Assembly: GCF_026339875.1 (NCBI RefSeq)
Contig: NZ_JAPEPZ010000002.1
Coordinates: 496,001 to 560,000 of the forward strand
Source of the DNA: Streptomyces sp. NBC_01571
GTDB lineage: Bacteria; Actinomycetota; Actinomycetes; Streptomycetales; Streptomycetaceae
Direction of reading: 5' to 3'
DNA: 64,000 nucleotides
Positions 2,612-18,863 of the stretch are shown piece by piece; the first letter of the stretch is position 1, and each line of letters opens with the position of its first letter. The notes beneath the pieces were generated by a model that had not been told where the DNA came from, ran no database searches, and was given only the letters and a program-made list of their open reading frames with translations. The position numbers were made by a program, and so were the translations under genes.

Positions 2612-2950
2612 GGTCAGATCCGTATCGTCGATCTGCTGAATCTCCTGGCGCAGGTCGTCGCGAGCTGGAACTCCACCAACGACAAGATCTTCTACGGCCG
2701 CGAGAGCGTCCTCACCGGCGCCGACCGCGACCACGCCGAGGTCTCCATGCTCGCACTCCATCTCCCGCAATCCAGCCTGGTCCTGATCAACACCCAGCTT
2801 CTCCAGGCGGTCTTCCGCGACCCGCGGTGGGCCGGGAAGCTCACCGCCGCAGACCGGCGCGGGCTGTCCCCGCTGTTCCGGTCCCACGCCAACCCGTACG
2901 GGAGATCTCACCTCGATATGGCCCCCAGGCTCGACATCACCAGGAGGTAG
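2612..2950 (+). pseudogene. Tn3-family transposase, C-terminal fragment
   Basis: Translation gives RIVDLLNLLAQVVASWNST, then IFYGRESVLTGADRDHAEV and, near the stop, LTAADRRGLSPLF and NPYGRSHLDMAPRLDI. These are the characteristic last 110 residues of Tn3-family (Tn4556-like) TnpA, whose full length is about 1000 residues. The catalytic DDE core lies upstream and is missing, so it cannot transpose. No 38-bp Tn3 terminal repeat was recognised nearby. Confidence 0.8.
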
Positions 2951-12247: not shown

Positions 12248-13173
12248 TGGCGCGCGGCATGGCCGACTTCGCAACGGACACGGAACCCTACCGGCGCGAG
12301 CTGCTGGCGCACTGCTATCGCATCCTCGGGTCGGTGGACGACGCCGAGGACGTCGTCCAGGAGACCTACCTGCGTGCCTGGCGTTCGTTTGAGTCGTTCG
12401 AAGGCAGATCGTCGGTGCGCAACTGGCTCTACCGCATTGCCACCAACGCATGCCTCTCCGCGTTGTCGCACCGCAGTAGGCGCTTCCTGCCGTCGGGCCT
12501 GGGCGGCCCCGCCGAAGACCCCTTGGCCTCGCTGACGGCTGCGGGAACACCATGGGTACAACCCGTTCCCACCTCGATGCTCGACCCGGCGGTGATCGTC
12601 ACAGCGCGCGACAGCCTGCGCATCGCGCTGATCGCCGCACTCCAGGAATTGCCAGGCCGCCAGCGGGCGGTCTTCATCCTGCGGGACGTCCTGGCGTGGC
12701 CGGCGTCGGACGTCGCGCAGGTGATGGGCACCAGTACGGCAGCCGTCAAGAGCACACTGCAGCGTGCGCGTGCGCGACTGCACGATGCGCCTCCCGATGT
12801 CGAGGAAGCGGTCGATCCCGGCGACCTGAGCGACGTCCTCGCCCAGTACATCGCGGCCGTCGAGGAGGCCGACGGAGCCGCCCTCGAACAGTTGCTACGC
12901 GTTGATGCCAGGGTCGAGGCGACGCCTTGGCGCACATGGTTCTCCGGGCGTGCCACCTGTGTGCCCCACCTCGTGCGGCAGGTCCTGGGCTCGCCGGGCG
13001 ACTGGCGGTTGCTGCCGACCAGCGCGAACGGCCGGCCCGCGGCCGTCGGCTACCACCAGGGGCGGCCCTACGGCATCCTCGTGCTCACGGTGACCTCGAC
13101 GGGCATCGCGAGCATCAACGCGTTCGGGGATCCGGCGCTCGTCAAGCGGTTCGGATTCCCCGCGCTCGTATGA
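12244..13173 (+). CDS. ECF-type sigma factor with SnoaL-like C-terminal extension
   Basis: A 309-residue sigma-70 family protein. Region 2 (about residues 15-85) includes DVVQETYLRAWRSF and WLYRIATNACL; region 4 (about 130-185) includes LQELPGRQRAVFILRDVLAW and TAAVKSTLQRARARL. The remaining 120 residues resemble the NTF2/SnoaL-like extension found in the SigG/SigJ-like ECF groups (TIGR02960 type), which act without a classical anti-sigma factor and may sense a ligand through the extension. The start is GTG 12244 or ATG 12247, both overlapping the stop codon of the reductase gene. No anti-sigma gene is adjacent, consistent with these groups. Confidence 0.9.
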   Translation: MMARGMADFATDTEPYRRELLAHCYRILGSVDDAEDVVQETYLRAWRSFESFEGRSSVRNWLYRIATNACLSALSHRSRRFLPSGLGGPAEDPLASLTAAGTPWVQPVPTSMLDPAVIVTARDSLRIALIAALQELPGRQRAVFILRDVLAWPASDVAQVMGTSTAAVKSTLQRARARLHDAPPDVEEAVDPGDLSDVLAQYIAAVEEADGAALEQLLRVDARVEATPWRTWFSGRATCVPHLVRQVLGSPGDWRLLPTSANGRPAAVGYHQGRPYGILVLTVTSTGIASINAFGDPALVKRFGFPALV

Positions 13174-13309
13174 CCGCGAAGGCCCGCGGCGGCCTCGCGG
13201 GATCGGACCACCACGCCCGGAGGATCACGGTCTACGGCTGGAGCCGACCTGGCAGCACCGACGAACAGGAGAACGGATATGACTGGCGCCGCCGCGTGTC
13301 CGGTCGCTG

Positions 13310-13467
13310 AGGGCTGTCCCGTTAATTTCCGGTGGATCAGCGCGCGGCGTCAGATGCGGTGCATCGCGAGGCGGAGGGTCGTCCTCATACTGGACGTATT
13401 CGGGCGATCCGGCGGCGAGGTGCCGTAGCTGTCGTCGTGCGCCCACCGGGGATTACGGGACAGCCCT
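13310..13467. mobile_element. MITE-like element, 158 bp, with terminal inverted repeats
   Basis: The ends AGGGCTGTCCCGT (13310-13322) and ACGGGACAGCCCT (13455-13467) are perfect 13-bp inverted repeats, and the similarity continues inward for about 12 more bases with one indel (CCGGTGG on both sides). There is no coding capacity. The flanks TGA and TTA just outside the GGGCTGTCCC core could be a decayed three-base target duplication. AGGGCTGTCCCG-type ends are familiar from Streptomyces IS5-family elements, so a mobilisable derivative is likely. It lies 78 bases before the large inverted repeat at 13546. Confidence 0.75.
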
Positions 13468-13545
13468 TAGTTTGATCTTTAACATCGGTCTCAAGATCGT
13501 TACCGCCGTGGTGCCGCTGTGCGGCTCAGCGCCTTGGTGGCCCGG

Positions 13546-13726
13546 TTCTCGCATAGCTACGGCAGACAGACATGTACCGGAGAGTGACGGCCCGTCTGGG
13601 CTTACCGCGGTACATGCGTGCAGCTCAACGGCGACAACACGGCCGTCCCCGCTGGAGCGGCCCAGGCCGCTGATCAAGACGGATGGCTACAGACGCCACC
13701 TGGCCGCAGCCAGACGAGAACAGGGC
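13546..13726 (+). repeat. 181-bp inverted repeat, left copy (flanks SUKH gene)
   Basis: This segment is repeated in reverse orientation at 15813-15993 with 177 of 181 bases identical; the four differences are all transitions and lie in two short clusters just before the small ORF start. Within it CATGTACCG (13571-13579) and CGGTACATG (13608-13616) form an inverted pair that could be an operator or stem. The segment ends inside a small ORF (13683-13751). It contains no recognisable transposase. It is separated from the SUKH start codon by 37 bases. Confidence 0.95.
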
Positions 13727-13751
13727 CGACACCGTTGTCGGTGCCGGATGA
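13683..13751 (+). CDS. Truncated copy of small peptide gene upstream of SUKH gene
   Basis: The frame encodes 22 residues, MATDATWPQPDENRADTVVG and two more. Its first 15 residues are identical to those of the 45-residue peptide encoded in the right-hand repeat copy (15719-15856), after which the sequence diverges and stops. The stop lies only 12 bases before the SUKH start. It may be a decayed duplicate, or a leader peptide that couples translation to the SUKH gene. The ribosome site (AAGACGG directly before the ATG) is poor. Confidence 0.35.
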   Translation: MATDATWPQPDENRADTVVGAG

Positions 13752-13763
13752 CACCATCCGGCC

Positions 13764-15659
13764 ATGAGTGATGAGTCTTTCAACTGGCACGAGTTCCTGG
13801 GACGGTGGCAGGAGGAGTGGGTTCCGCGCGCGGACGAGGACGAGGACGAGGACGGCGGGCATTCCCTCGTCCGCCCCGGCAGGCCAGCGGCGGACGAGGC
13901 CGCGATCGCCGCGGCCAAGGAGCGGCTGGGTCGGCGGCTGCCGCCCTCGTACCGGGAGTTCCTGGCCGTGAGCGACGGGTGGCACGTGGACCAGACGGCC
14001 GGGGTCTATCAGCTTGGCGGCGCCGCGGACATCGACTGGTTCCAGGATCCGTTCGACATGACCCCGCTGTACGAGGAGAACCTGGGCGACAACTCGCGCG
14101 AGGAGGACATCCTGCTGGCTGGGATGTGGCAACGGGCGCTACGGCTGGAGACGGACTCCGACATGTCGTACGCCCTGCTCGACCCGGGCGACAGTGACCA
14201 GGACGGTGAGTGGGCGCTCTACCTCTACAAGGGCTGGGGCGGTGAACTGCCAGACCGCTACCCGTCGTTCCGCGCGTACATGGAGGCCATGTACCGCGGC
14301 TTCCACTCGGACCGAGTGGAGCGGCCCGACTTCGTGAACACGACCACGCGGGCCCAGGATGCCCATGTGGAGGAGGCCCGTCTGCTGGCCCTGCGCGGAC
14401 GGTACGAGGAGGCCCTGCCCCTGCTCGAGGAAGCACTGTCCTTCGGACGGCCACGCAGCGCCGTCCTCCTGAACCAGCTCCGGCATCTGCTGGCTCCGTG
14501 CAGTTCCCGGGATTACGGCAACCTCGTGGCCGACCCGCGCTACCTGCCCGAGCTTCTGCCCGTGCATGCCATGGCGCCGGCACGCGGCGAATGGCGGCTG
14601 GGCGGGGATGACCACTGGCTCGGGATGATGACCGCCCGCGGGGCCGCCCGGAAGACCGTCGAGGCCGTACTGAGCACGATGCGGGACGGCACCCACCACT
14701 ACACGCCTCCCGGTCCATGGGGCCGGGCCGTCGCCGAGGCCCGGGAATCAGCCTGCTGGGGGGCGACCGACGCCGCGTGGCGGGTGCTGCGGGACGCGCT
14801 CCCGCTGTGGGAGGCTCCCGGGCCCTTGCTGATCGCCCCGATCGGCCTGCTCGCCGATCCGGTCCTGGGTCCGCTGATCACCCCGGAGCGTGGGCGGGAA
14901 ATCCTCGCGACACCGCGGGCCGGGGAGCGGGGTCCCGCTCCCGAGCCGGTGCCCGACCTCGACCCGCCGGGACTCGCCTGGCTGGCAGAGCCTGCGGCGG
15001 GATGGCGGCCGCTCGACGGATACCGCTGTGTCTGGGTGGAGGGCATCGATCCCGCCCGACTTCCCGCCCTGATCGGGGAGGAAGGCACCGCACTGAGCGC
15101 GCCCACGGATCAGCGTGAGGCGTCCTGGCGGGCGCCCCGGCCTCGCGAGCGGGAGGGCGTGGAACTCTGGGAGGACCGGGCCGTGGTCGCGGTCGGCCGC
15201 ACCGCCGAAGGGTGGGTCTTCGCCTTCGACGGCCACCCCCACCACCTGAACAAGCTGTTCCTGTCCCCCGCTCCGGCTGCCTCCTCGTCCGGCCGCGTGG
15301 TGGTGGTGTGGCGCGAGCCGAGGCGCTCGTCGCCGGGTGACCACCCGGCCGCATTCCACCTGTCGGTGGCCCAACAGAGCGAGGAGCTCTACGCGTTCAC
15401 CGTGCGGGGTACAGAGATCCAGCGCTCCGGCGCAATACCCGAGACGCTGGACCCCGCACGGCTGTTCCACCCGCAGGACACCGAACTGGACAACGAGCTG
15501 CGTGTGCTGGAGGCCCTGCACACCGAGCTCGGGCTCTCGCTCCCCCGCTTCGCGCTCACCCAAGGCAGGCTCCGCACCTTCACTACCCGGTCCTGGACCC
15601 GGGCGCCACGCGCGGGCGAGGGGTTCGCCTACGCCAGCTTCGTACGGCACCGGCCCTGA
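13764..15659 (+). CDS. Large SMI1/KNR4 (SUKH) domain protein
   Basis: A 631-residue protein. The SUKH-1 domain (about residues 40-175) is marked by IAAAKERLGRRLPPSYREFL, SDGWH, and later DGEWALYLYKGWGGELPDRY followed by FRAYMEAMY. An acidic run (DEDEDED) precedes it. Residues about 195-240 look like a helical repeat (EEARLLALRGRYEEALPLLE). The rest is unassigned but well conserved in style and ends in a beta-rich domain. SUKH proteins are known mainly as immunity proteins against secreted nuclease toxins and as general interaction modules. The gene is enclosed by 181-bp inverted repeats and followed by palindromic terminator-like sequence; no toxin gene is recognisable in the window. Confidence 0.85.
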   Translation: MSDESFNWHEFLGRWQEEWVPRADEDEDEDGGHSLVRPGRPAADEAAIAAAKERLGRRLPPSYREFLAVSDGWHVDQTAGVYQLGGAADIDWFQDPFDMTPLYEENLGDNSREEDILLAGMWQRALRLETDSDMSYALLDPGDSDQDGEWALYLYKGWGGELPDRYPSFRAYMEAMYRGFHSDRVERPDFVNTTTRAQDAHVEEARLLALRGRYEEALPLLEEALSFGRPRSAVLLNQLRHLLAPCSSRDYGNLVADPRYLPELLPVHAMAPARGEWRLGGDDHWLGMMTARGAARKTVEAVLSTMRDGTHHYTPPGPWGRAVAEARESACWGATDAAWRVLRDALPLWEAPGPLLIAPIGLLADPVLGPLITPERGREILATPRAGERGPAPEPVPDLDPPGLAWLAEPAAGWRPLDGYRCVWVEGIDPARLPALIGEEGTALSAPTDQREASWRAPRPREREGVELWEDRAVVAVGRTAEGWVFAFDGHPHHLNKLFLSPAPAASSSGRVVVVWREPRRSSPGDHPAAFHLSVAQQSEELYAFTVRGTEIQRSGAIPETLDPARLFHPQDTELDNELRVLEALHTELGLSLPRFALTQGRLRTFTTRSWTRAPRAGEGFAYASFVRHRP

Positions 15660-15661
15660 GC

Positions 15662-15699
15662 GGGTGCGGGCCCGCACCCCCGTGGAAGGCGGGCCCGCC
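15662..15699. terminator. Two palindromes after the SUKH gene
   Basis: GGGTGCGGGCCCGCACCC (15662-15679) is a perfect 18-bp palindrome starting two bases after the stop codon, and GGCGGGCCCGCC (15688-15699) is a second, 12-bp one. Both would form stable RNA hairpins. They lie between the SUKH gene and the end of the convergent small peptide gene. Confidence 0.6.
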
Positions 15700-15718
15700 C
15701 GGGACGCCGGCCGTGGTC

Positions 15719-15856
15719 TCAGCTCAGGTTGATCGCGCGGGCGCTTGCTGCGCCGACCTCTTGGGCGACCTTCGTGAGGACCGGCTGCGGCACCGTGTCA
15801 TCCGTGGTCGGAGCCCTGTTCTCGTCTGGCTGCGGCCAGGTGGCGTCTGTAGCCAT
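15719..15856 (-). CDS. Small peptide gene of unknown function (45 residues)
   Basis: The 45-residue product starts MATDATWPQPDENRAPTTDD and ends VAQEVGAASARAINLS. The N-terminal half is polar and acidic and the C-terminal half is a possible helix rich in alanine and ending in small polar residues. Such a two-part build recalls leader/core peptides, but no modification enzyme is nearby. An in-frame stop lies just upstream, so ATG 15856 is the only start. Its upstream 137 bases and first 15 codons lie in the right 181-bp repeat and are duplicated before the SUKH gene. I do not recognise a family; convergent with the SUKH gene. Confidence 0.45.
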   Translation of the reverse strand: MATDATWPQPDENRAPTTDDTVPQPVLTKVAQEVGAASARAINLS

Positions 15857-15993
15857 CCACCTTGATCAGCGGCCTGGGCCGCTCCAGCAGAGACGGCCGT
15901 GTTGTCGCCGTTGAGCTGCACGCATGTACCGCGGTAAGCCCAGACGGGCCGTCACTCTCCGGTACATGTCTGTCTGCCGTAGCTATGCGAGAA
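15813..15993 (-). repeat. 181-bp inverted repeat, right copy
   Basis: Reverse complement of 13546-13726 with four transitions. It carries the presumed promoter region and the first codons of the small peptide gene. The inverted pair CATGTACCG/CGGTACATG is preserved at 15923-15931 and 15960-15968. Outside both copies the flanking sequences are unrelated, so the duplication ends sharply at the listed bases. Confidence 0.95.
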
Positions 15994-16153
15994 GTGCCTT
16001 GATGAGCAGCCGGGAGATGAGCCTGGGTAGGTTTCGGAACTCCGCCCCGGCGAGGTGCCGTGCCGCATGTGTTCCGTAGCCTCTGCGAGCCTGACATCCG
16101 TGCTGGGCACGGCCACGCGATGAAGCCGTAGGAACCAATCCCATGGGGCCAGG

Positions 16154-16485
16154 ATGACCGATCCCGACAGCGAGTGGCGGCTCTGGAGCGGGGCAGTACC
16201 CTCATCGGCACGATCAACGTCGACGAGGCCGGCATGCCCTGGCAGCATGGACGTTTCCTCCCAGAGCCTGCCTTCAGCCAGTTCAGGCCCTGGTTCGACA
16301 AGGTCAACGCCCGCGTCGAGGCGGAGGAGTTCGAACGGTTCGACAACGCCTACGATCGCATCGAAAGTGCCCTGACCGTGGTGTCACTGTCGGGGCCCGT
16401 TGCCGAGTACCTCCTTCACATCGACCAGGACCGCGCGTGGTTCCGCTGGGACATGGAACCGTCAGCAAGTCAAAACTCAAGTTAG
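16154..16485 (+). pseudogene. Small unknown protein gene with a one-base frameshift
   Basis: Two frames fit together: MTDPDSEWRL from ATG 16154, then LERGSTLIGTINVDEAGMPW from about base 16183 to the stop at 16485. Restoring one C at about 16182 (CGGCTCTGG to CGGCTCCTGG) would give a single 111-residue protein. The rest includes FLPEPAFSQFRPWFDKVNAR and ends in a tryptophan-rich tail. I do not recognise a family; the size and location beside SUKH and ankyrin genes fit an immunity-type protein. Either a pseudogene or an assembly error. Confidence 0.6.
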
Positions 16486-16496
16486 CCTCGGCCCCC

Positions 16497-16928
16497 ATGA
16501 ACCAGCGGCGGCGCAAGAAGCTCACCCGACGTCTCTTCGCAGCCATTCCCAGGGGTGACACCGCCGTCGTGAAGGCGCTTCTGCGGGCGGGAGTCGACCC
16601 GGATCACGCGGACAGCGAGGGCACCACGCCTCTGTACGAGGCATCCGTGAACGGGAAGACCGAGATCGTCCGTCTGCTGCTGGCGGCTGGGTCTTCCCCG
16701 AACGCCGAGAGCAGCGGACTCGGCGCGGATGGCACGCCCTTGTGCGCGGCCGCGTGCTGGGGGCACACCGAAACGGTGCGCGAACTGTTGGCGCACGGCG
16801 CTGATGCGAACCTTCACGAGGATCACGGCACGGGATGGGCCCCCCTGACGTGGGCGAACCACGGCCCCCATCCCGAAAGTGCCGATCTCCTCCTCGCGGC
16901 GGGAGCTACCCCCGGGGGAACTCCGTAG
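16497..16928 (+). CDS. Ankyrin-repeat protein
   Basis: A 143-residue protein with about three and a half ankyrin repeats: RGDTAVVKALLRAGVDPDHA, then GTTPLYEASVNGKTEIVRLL, TPLCAAACWGHTETVRELL and WAPLTWA. ATG 16497 is chosen because the preceding basic segment (NQRRRKKLTRRL) leads directly into the first repeat. Ankyrin repeats bind other proteins; in bacteria, small ankyrin proteins often occur in immunity clusters next to SUKH genes, and that is the context here. It starts 11 bases after the stop of the frameshifted gene and is probably co-transcribed with it. Confidence 0.88.
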   Translation: MNQRRRKKLTRRLFAAIPRGDTAVVKALLRAGVDPDHADSEGTTPLYEASVNGKTEIVRLLLAAGSSPNAESSGLGADGTPLCAAACWGHTETVRELLAHGADANLHEDHGTGWAPLTWANHGPHPESADLLLAAGATPGGTP

Positions 16929-16994
16929 CATCCCCGTTCGTCATCCGGGCTCCGACTGCAGCGCTCCGACTACCGCGCTGGATCTCCCCACGAG

Positions 16995-18863
16995 TCAGCT
17001 TCGCAACAGGCCCTGGTCGGCCACGGCCGGGGATTCGGCCTTCTCCTCGGGCTCCGGCTCGGTGCCGGTGACGATGCGGCGGATCGTCTCCAGCGGCAGC
17101 TTCGGTGAACCGTCCGTGTAGAGAAGGCCGTTGGTCTCCTGGGCGGTGTCCATGAACTGCGTGTAGCAGAAGCCCGCGACGATCGGGCTCGTGTGCAGCA
17201 CCCCGAAGATGTCGCCGAGCAGGGCGGCGTACTGCGTGTCGGAGCTGGTCCGCGTGTAGGAGAACTCGTCCTCCTCGGCGCCCACGGACAGACCGCCGAA
17301 CTCGGTGACCATCAGCGGGGCTTCACCGGCGCGGTAGCGCTCCGTCTGCCGTGCGTCGAGCGAGAGGGTCCGCCCGGCGGGCCCCGGCGAGGCCAGCAGC
17401 GCCTCGAACCCGGCGGCGTCGCCGTAGCGGCGGGTGAGCAACTCGGGGTCGGAGGAGTAGTCGTGCACACCCATGATGTCGCTGTCGGTGTGCTCCCAGC
17501 CCTCGTTGGACATGACCGGGCGGGTCGGGTCCAGGGCGCGGGTGAAGTTCGCGAGCGCGACCGTGTACGCCTGTTGCGCCGGGTCGTTGGCGATGTCGGA
17601 GCAGCCCCAGCTCTCGTTGACCGGCACCCAGGTGACGACAGAGGGGTGGCTGCGGTCGCGCCGCACCATGTCCAGCCACTCACGGGTGAGCAGTTCCACG
17701 GCCTCGGTGCCGTACTCGTACGCGGCGCCGGTCTCGCCCCACACCAGCAGGCCGAGCCGGTCCGCCCAGTACAGGAAGCGCGGGTCCTCTGCCTTCTGGT
17801 GGATACGGACGGCGTTGAAGCCCATCGCCTTGATCAGCTCGACCTCGCGGCGCAGTTCGGCGGTGCCGGAGTTCGCGATCAGGGTGTCGGGGCGGTAGCC
17901 CTGGTTGAGCACCGAACGCACGTAGTAGGGGCGGTCGTTGAGCAGGAAGGCGCCCCCGCCGACGCCGGCGCTGCGCAGGCCGACGTAGCTGTCGACGGTG
18001 TCGAGCACCCCGGAGGTGGCGGCGTCGCGGACGGTCACCCGCGCGTCGATCAGCGTGGGCCGCTCCGGGCTCCACAGCAGGTCCTCACGGTCGATGCCGT
18101 TGCGCAGGGCGGGCACGACGAGGTCGATGCGGCTGCGCGGGGTGCGTACCAGGGAGGTGGACTCGGCGAGGACCTCGCCGTCGAGGCTCAGCACGATCTC
18201 CACGCTCACCGGGGCGGCCGGCACCGAGGCCAGGGTGATCTCGGCCCCGACGCCGCGCGCCGGGTCGGGGATCCAGGCCAGGTCGGTGACGTGCTGACCC
18301 GCGACGGTCTCGGTCCACACGGTCTGCCAGATGCCGGTGGTCCGCTCGTACCAGACCGCGTGCGGCCGGTCCTGCCAGTCCTGCTTGCCGCGCGGCTGTG
18401 CCAGGTCGGCCGGGTCGTCCTCGGCGCGGACGACGAGCACGTGCTCGGCGGCGCCGGGGCGCAGCGCATCGGTCACGTCGGCGGTGAACGGCGTCTGGCC
18501 GCCCACGTGCTCGGCCACCAGCCGGCCGTCCAGCCAGACCTTGGCCCGGTGGTCGACGGCTCCGAAGTGCACCAGCGCCCGGTCGCCGCCGCTGACGGCG
18601 AGAACCTCGTGGGGTACGCGGCGGCGGTACCAGACCACCGGGTGCGGAGCGGTCTCGCCGATGCCGGAGGCGGGGGCCTCGGGTGGGAACGGGACGGTGA
18701 TCTCCCGGTCGAACGCACCCTTCGGCTCCTCGGAGAACCACGTGTCGCGTTCGCCCTCGCCGGCGTCGTCGTACCCGAAGTCCCAGACGCCGTCGAGGCT
18801 GTGCCACCGCTCCCGCCGCAGGATCGGCCTCGGATACGTCCCGTCCTGCTCGCTCGCCCTCAC
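16995..18863 (-). CDS. Glycoside hydrolase family 2 enzyme
   Basis: A 622-residue cytoplasmic enzyme (no signal peptide) with the three-part GH2 build: sugar-binding jelly roll (about 15-185; WHSLDGVWDFGYDDAG, WYRRRVPHEV), an immunoglobulin-like middle domain (about 190-290) and a TIM barrel (about 300-610). The acid/base is Glu417 in VPVNESWG and the nucleophile Glu521 in VTEFGG. The family cleaves beta-galactosides, beta-glucuronides or beta-mannosides; specificity is not clear. GTG 18863 is chosen because GGAGGAGG lies five bases upstream; the frame stays open far beyond but that part overlaps the LacI gene. It is divergent from the LacI gene with an operator between them. Confidence 0.92.
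   Translation of the reverse strand: MRASEQDGTYPRPILRRERWHSLDGVWDFGYDDAGEGERDTWFSEEPKGAFDREITVPFPPEAPASGIGETAPHPVVWYRRRVPHEVLAVSGGDRALVHFGAVDHRAKVWLDGRLVAEHVGGQTPFTADVTDALRPGAAEHVLVVRAEDDPADLAQPRGKQDWQDRPHAVWYERTTGIWQTVWTETVAGQHVTDLAWIPDPARGVGAEITLASVPAAPVSVEIVLSLDGEVLAESTSLVRTPRSRIDLVVPALRNGIDREDLLWSPERPTLIDARVTVRDAATSGVLDTVDSYVGLRSAGVGGGAFLLNDRPYYVRSVLNQGYRPDTLIANSGTAELRREVELIKAMGFNAVRIHQKAEDPRFLYWADRLGLLVWGETGAAYEYGTEAVELLTREWLDMVRRDRSHPSVVTWVPVNESWGCSDIANDPAQQAYTVALANFTRALDPTRPVMSNEGWEHTDSDIMGVHDYSSDPELLTRRYGDAAGFEALLASPGPAGRTLSLDARQTERYRAGEAPLMVTEFGGLSVGAEEDEFSYTRTSSDTQYAALLGDIFGVLHTSPIVAGFCYTQFMDTAQETNGLLYTDGSPKLPLETIRRIVTGTEPEPEEKAESPAVADQGLLRS

Follow-up and report, generated by a model that had tools for sequence, protein, structure and literature searches.

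The stretch analysed here comprises 64,000 nucleotides of Streptomyces sp. NBC_01571 (contig NZ_JAPEPZ010000002.1, positions 496,001 to 560,000; hereafter the window) and exhibits a gene of the SUKH family enclosed by two long inverted repeats. Judged from its sequence, the whole structure (positions 13539-15998, 2460 bp) is a TIME-COMP, a composite in which two Tn3-derived miniature elements (TIMEs) surround a cargo, here the SUKH gene and a scrap of a serA-like gene. The explanation in which we place high confidence is that this TIME-COMP, carrying the SUKH gene with a promoter of its own, would have been moved by a Tn3-family transposase (TnpA) acting in trans. The features by which a TIME-COMP is recognised are all present: two TIMEs around a cargo, no transposase inside, a 5-bp direct repeat and an uninterrupted target site. 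The cargo gene (13764..15659, + strand) encodes a 631-aa protein of the SUKH-1 (SMI1/KNR4) type, matching the Pfam family SMI1_KNR4 (PF09346) over residues 43-174 (E-value = 1.1e-9), with no match in NCBIfam or PADLOC. It is the only recognised gene between the repeats when the sense strand is considered. SUKH proteins have an immunity role in polymorphic toxin systems.

The repeats as Tn3-derived units

A previous examination of the letters of the window, referred to below as the sequence-only reading, had described the segments 13546-13726 and 15813-15993 as reverse complements at 177 of 181 positions, differing by transitions only. This description is correct, and the repeat pair was also found independently; the four mismatches are at 13648, 13650, 13679 and 13680. 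The 181-bp unit with sharp ends proposed at the same time is real as the part common to both copies, but the full unit is 189 bp long and possesses the tips GGCCCGG and CAGGGCC. The left TIME (13539..13727, + strand) exhibits the outer inverted repeat (IR) GGCCCGGTTCTCGCATAGCTACGGC.. and, on the reverse strand, the inner IR GGCCCTGTTCTCGTCTGGCTGCGGC.. The right TIME (15812..15998, - strand) is an inverted copy, of which the outer tip is damaged in the window (GGCAC for GGCCCGG) and the inner tip has one base changed. Both outer tips are intact in the two relatives of the composite introduced below. The 181-bp unit occurs at two places only in the 11.5-Mb genome of the strain, both in the cassette (search at E-value <= 0.001). 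Pairing the two ends of the left unit with each other gives 20 matches over 25 positions and a score of 25, compared with a mean of 14.7 and a maximum of 24 in 300 shuffles. A 23-bp end has three matches in the window, all at these units, and none in 100 shuffles.

Relatives of the unit were sought in 392 genomes of the genus (G numbers, G000 being the genome under study; L numbers designate loci read out). Matches to the 181-bp query were found in 45 genomes, our own counted, many of them spanning one end only (bases 1-43 or 141-181), and the end sequence read out from the matching loci is GGCCCTGTTCTCGTATAGCTACGGC. The outer end of the left unit agrees with an IR in G038 at 34 of 38 bases, and its inner end with an IR in G347 at 32 of 38 bases. 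All five loci where a transposase start is seen or expected (L024, L025, L038, L111 and L112, L024 and L111 being one and the same place in G038) have a Tn3 transposase motif at a distance of 132-150 bases inward from the IR. Ends of this kind are found next to the start of tnpA in L025, L038 and L112. L112 has a tnpA frame of 1026 aa, the product of which is recognised as a Tn3 family transposase (DDE_Tnp_Tn3, 415 bits; NCBIfam transpos_Tn3, 817 bits); in L025 and L038 the frame continues past the edge of the locus, and in G038 it is disrupted. Exact 5-bp target site duplications (TSDs) were identified at four of seven other elements with these ends: GCATA (8465 bp), GTCAC (911 bp), GTGTA (10244 bp) and GATCC (1265 bp).

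Since the IRs are shared with transposase-bearing Tn3 elements and are accompanied by 5-bp TSDs, we identify the 189-bp unit as a TIME, a miniature element of the Tn3 family that has no transposase and ends in IRs of about 38 bp. TIMEs are 50-500 bp long and without a transposase gene; the unit lies within this range, and no Tn3 transposase match was found within the cassette or the 189-bp units. The absence of a transposase noted by the sequence-only reading thus holds for the inside of the cassette, whereas a C-terminal Tn3 transposase fragment (48 bits) is located in the same window at 2663-2905 (+ strand). That reading had also allowed that the repeat might be a common end of an insertion sequence (IS) with no relation to peptide or SUKH genes, which for the repeat ends is largely what we find; a simple IS end was rejected, the ends being of the Tn3 family and the unit a miniature inverted-repeat transposable element (MITE).

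The relatives of the unit in G142 and G068 contain additional sequence in their interior, including a palindrome (CGCGGTGAATACGCGATTCACCGCG in G142); it is lacking in the window copies and may be a former resolution site. The inverted pair CATGTACCG/CGGTACATG, pointed out earlier, is present in the window unit but not kept in the units of G314, G336, G142 and G068, and a functional operator made of this pair was rejected on that ground. Rfam gave no match in 12500-17500.

Movement of the composite as one block

Two further copies of the composite were identified. One is in Streptomyces olivochromogenes DSM 40451 (L167), the sole record with two inverted matches in a pattern scan of species genomes that may omit records close to the window's own. 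The other is on a 1.56-Mb linear plasmid of Streptomyces sp. NBC_01483 (L168), which among 29 records matched in a plasmid search is alone in covering the entire query (97.3%). The homology of the window to both loci begins at 13460-13466 and ends at 16481, forming a 3.0-kb block 96.5-96.8% identical to the two strains. No homology was found beyond this block between window positions 4001-26000 and the 6.1 and 18.5 kb of surroundings of L167 and L168. In both of these loci the pentamer TTGGT is found exactly on either side of the composite; in the window the left TSD (13534..13538) is TTGGT and the right one (15999..16003) is TTGAT. The left TIME taken alone has no TSD (TTGGT outside, GACAC inside), as expected if the composite was inserted as a whole. 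In G023 the two flanks are joined and the composite is missing. Alignment of the left flank alone gives a score of 40, whereas 500 shuffles reach 29 at most, and the sequence of the right flank follows immediately. The exact TSD in two relatives, the empty site and the absence of homology beyond the block together support the movement of the composite as a unit, an option that the sequence-only reading had offered along with the occurrence of the cassette at different sites; both are borne out, as the surroundings in L167 and L168 share no homology with those of the window in the stretches compared.

The same data bear on the possibility that the two TIMEs were inserted independently beside the SUKH gene, became alike through gene conversion, and never moved as a composite. 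Inverted repeats can convert each other, and the junction of the right copy with the serA-like tail has a relative in G290. On the other hand, the 5-bp duplication is located at the two outermost ends and not around the left TIME, and G023 is without the whole composite at that site. We regard this possibility as very improbable. Another possibility is an invertible cassette, in which recombination between the copies would flip the SUKH gene as a phase switch. Long inverted repeats 2 kb apart permit homologous inversion. An inverted internal structure has been reported in TIME-COMPs as well (excerpt of PMC13367494). However, the block exhibits one and the same orientation in the window, L167 and L168, and the SUKH gene and its promoter-like motif lie together inside the repeats, so that a flip would not uncouple them; with the SUKH gene, moreover, as the only recognised gene there, the switch is scarcely credible, and the inversion suggested by the sequence-only reading finds no support.

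Some observations weigh against a composite of this kind. In the window itself the TSD copies are equal at four of five bases and the right outer tip is damaged; the two ends of the right unit, paired with each other, give a score of 16, within the range of its shuffles (its tip being damaged). Three of the seven other elements with these ends (L109, L041 and L039) are without an exact TSD. A related junction of TIME end and serA tail (100 bp, 78%) is found in G290 (L183, near 4719034-4719126 of G290:C1) with the same frame read through and no SUKH gene, so that the right TIME may have an origin other than straightforward copying of the left. Finally, the genome of the strain contains four Tn3 transposase matches only, all partial, so that the composite is probably not mobile there at present.

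A history can be proposed for the TIME-COMP. In G314 and G336 a TIME occupies the same place upstream of the SUKH gene, while over the 19.0 and 14.0 kb examined no counterpart on the right was found, and G075 and three NBC plasmids (L169-L171) exhibit an IR-like remnant upstream of the SUKH gene (judged by eye). The TIME at this position thus probably predates the composite. A TIME would have landed just upstream of the SUKH gene, as in G314 and G336. An inverted second copy may then have arisen beside the serA tail via intramolecular replicative transposition, a process that yields inverted duplications; alternatively, a second TIME may have been inserted separately, gene conversion having made the two alike afterwards. 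Replicative transposition of the composite would finally have been carried out by a Tn3-family TnpA supplied in trans and working on the two outermost IRs.

Tn4556 belongs to the Tn3 family. Described from Streptomyces fradiae, it has 38-bp IRs, a target duplication and its own tnpA (excerpt of PMC6403206); the composite resembles it in IR length and target duplication, by description and not by IR sequence, and differs in lacking a tnpA. The TIMEs of Pseudomonas (PLoS One 2014) are non-autonomous Tn3-family elements of 262 bp with 38-bp imperfect IRs, and two copies of them, also inverted, mobilise the DNA between them in TIME-COMP1/2 with 5-bp duplications (excerpt of PMC4133298). The unit studied here is likewise short, Tn3-derived and provided with IRs of about 38 bp (the IRs of the two groups being likened by layout, not by sequence), but it is 189 bp long, resides in Streptomyces and has a SUKH cargo, and its mobility is deduced from sequence comparison. 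The TIME-COMPs of Enterobacteriaceae (IS101, IMU, MITESen1, TIME244) consist of direct or inverted TIMEs with a transposase in trans and mostly 5-bp direct repeats; their cargo is resistance genes and they are found predominantly on plasmids (excerpt of PMC13367494). The composite architecture is similar here, whereas what is carried is a SUKH gene, the host is Streptomyces, and one of the copies resides on a linear megaplasmid. We thus regard the present TIME-COMP as a further case of an established kind, in another host group. Streptomyces is not mentioned in the two TIME-COMP papers (PMC4133298, PMC13367494; 0 occurrences), and among the titles listed in a literature search, with most subscription papers outside its reach, none was on TIMEs in Streptomyces. 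The present case adds a Streptomyces TIME-COMP with a sequence record of transposition consisting of TSD, empty site and two further copies.

The 45-codon frame and the probable promoter of the SUKH gene

The sequence-only reading had favoured another origin, in which a gene for a small peptide was copied, promoter included, in inverted orientation, and the SUKH gene is now driven by the truncated left copy. Its description of the frames is accurate: the left open reading frame (ORF; 13683-13751) has 22 codons and ends 12 bases before the SUKH ATG (13764), the right frame (15719..15856, - strand) has 45 codons, and the two share the same ATG and the first 15 codons. This identity speaks for a duplicated gene, as does the presence of an uninterrupted 45-codon frame in each of the three composites, with a partly similar frame in G290. 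Promoters can also be contained in TIMEs of Pseudomonas (excerpt of PMC4133298).

The make-up of the frame argues against such a gene. Residues 1-15, the shared codons, are the Tn3 end, and in the units of G142, G314 and G068 no ATG stands at the start. Residues 17-44 correspond to the tail of a serA-like gene (15719..15811, - strand; about 28 codons and the stop), with 68% amino acid identity to residues 501-528 of a 529-aa gene of the same genome (G000:C1). We take the latter to be serA (3-phosphoglycerate dehydrogenase), a name based on recall and on two plasmid genes annotated serA that match the same residues of the peptide. The search for unit and peptide proposed by the sequence-only reading recovered the unit in other genomes. 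For the peptide, among the matches listed for the 392 genomes, only residues 15-45 are matched, as for serA, except in our own genome and in G290 (residues 1-31). Nonsynonymous changes are not depleted in the peptide frame, although the changes are few: the window differs from either relative by 2 synonymous and 5 nonsynonymous changes (ratio of nonsynonymous to synonymous changes per site, pN/pS, 0.83-0.84), and L167 differs from L168 by 0 and 4. In the SUKH gene the window exhibits 31.5 synonymous and 15.5 nonsynonymous changes against L167, and 23.5 and 14.5 against L168 (pN/pS about 0.2), with 7 of each between L167 and L168. On account of the serA tail, the unconserved ATG and the lack of codon constraint (in few changes), a peptide gene was rejected as unlikely. 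The frame would most likely be an accident, created where a repeat end meets the last part of another gene. Expression of a peptide is unlikely, while the open frame in three composites and the G290 junction count against an accident. The case corrects an easy misreading, in that transposon ends beside a gene scrap can mimic a small peptide gene with its promoter.

The donor of the serA tail was not found in the 392 genomes (best identity among the matches listed, 71-72%). An ancestral serA neighbour of the SUKH gene was considered and rejected, there being no convincing serA match in the loci of SUKH orthologues (most with 1.5-kb flanks). The SUKH copy of L168 exhibits a 2-base deletion across its first codons, placing the usual start out of frame.

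Promoters of the RecA-NDp/PafBC type have been described for actinobacteria (excerpts of PMC5656591, PMC5087735 and PMC8223512), where they precede DNA-damage genes, Streptomyces included (excerpt of PMC5087735); the consensus of this LexA-independent DNA-damage promoter is tTGTCRgtg-8 nt-TannnT (excerpt of PMC5656591). A motif of this type, TTGTCGGTG-N8-CACCAT, is located between the left TIME and the SUKH gene (13735..13757, + strand), 6 bases before the ATG. Its box, TTGTCGGTG at 13735, agrees with TTGTCRGTG, and the spacing of 8 nt to the -10 hexamer (CACCAT; consensus TANNNT) is that of the consensus. The motif without the first T is found at 33 of 35 SUKH loci, a set in which the locus of the window itself and three very similar plasmid loci are counted; it is missed in L045, where one base differs, and in L070, which lies at a contig edge. 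Of 20,000 windows drawn at random from the same loci, 1.3% contain the full motif and 2.8% the box alone. As the SUKH loci are related, the 33 are not a count of independent events; they extend, however, to 46% amino acid identity. No TIME match is present at 27 of the 30 SUKH loci compared, the matches being at L039, L043 and L047 (L043 and L047 represent a single site of G336). When Y is allowed at the first -10 base, the pattern has 62 matches in our own genome, against 2 for the reversed pattern. Thirty of these loci were read, and in 11 of them the start codon picked by script is 29-31 bases away from the motif. Four of the ten such genes tested encode an MgsA/RarA-type ATPase, UvrB, O6-methylguanine-DNA methyltransferase and DNA polymerase III gamma/tau.

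Two observations fit this promoter class less well. The first -10 base of the SUKH motif is C where the published consensus has T. The other six of the ten genes, a count taken without a background rate, are not of DNA repair or replication: a methyltransferase, a pentapeptide-repeat protein, a DUF5937 and helix-turn-helix protein, a DUF1963 protein, a DUF4253 protein and one without a match.

The motif at 33 of 35 SUKH loci, the orthologues free of TIMEs and the enrichment in our own genome make it very likely that the SUKH gene has its own promoter of the RecA-NDp/PafBC class. Transcription would most likely start from this promoter and not from the TIME; damage induction of the SUKH gene is predicted by analogy with the described promoters, from which its motif differs at the first -10 base while sharing box and 8-nt layout. 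The proposal that a peptide-plus-promoter unit was copied and drives the SUKH gene finds no support, the frame being Tn3 end and serA tail, and the motif lying between the unit and the SUKH gene and recurring at orthologues without a TIME. No sigma-70-like promoter was found in 13400-16200 (one promoter type scanned). We hold that proposal to be improbable. The motif suggests a link between a large Streptomyces family of SUKH proteins and the LexA-independent DNA-damage regulon. In the same genome, a DUF1963 and a DUF4253 gene (L119 and L145, G000:C1) lie directly behind RecA-NDp-like motifs with nearly the spacing of the SUKH gene.

The outer block and its neighbourhood

The 3.0-kb block common to S. 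olivochromogenes and Streptomyces sp. NBC_01483 (13466..16481) extends beyond the TIME-COMP on both sides. It is bounded by 13-bp repeats CTTGAGTTTTAAC, with one mismatch on the right in L167; in the window both are degenerate, as TTTGATCTTTAAC at 13471-13483 (matched by eye) and GTCAAAACTCAAG at 16469-16481. These bounding repeats suggest that the TIME-COMP is nested in a second small element, with which the 3-kb block would have reached unrelated places. The sequence CTTGAGTTTTAAC is found exactly in 6 of the 392 genomes, and its reversed control in none. Elements with these ends exhibit CTGAG on both flanks in L167 and L174, and unequal 5-mers in L168, L173, L175 and G023. A transposase for the outer element was looked for and none was found. 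It is a speculative possibility, which we think doubtful, that such a two-layer carrier free of transposase (the TIME-COMP within the CTTGAGTTTTAAC-ended element) spreads a damage-inducible SUKH gene between chromosomes and megaplasmids. If so, the SUKH gene would travel with its own damage promoter, and any Tn3 or helper transposase would deliver a ready stress or immunity module.

The outer block also contains a 103-aa ORF (16174..16485, + strand) with no match in Pfam, NCBIfam or PADLOC. Adjoining the degenerate left end of the block is a 164-bp element (13307-13470), probably an IS-type MITE, whose 16-bp inverted ends CTRAGGGCTGTCCCGT agree at 15 of 16 positions. L173 and L168 have the same sequence CGTACGTCCA after the outer 13-bp repeat, possibly a shared insertion neighbourhood. 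An ankyrin-repeat ORF (16437-16925, + strand) starts inside the right end of the block and extends beyond it; it matches the PADLOC models PDC-M72A, Ankyrin and MzaA, probably through its repeats only.

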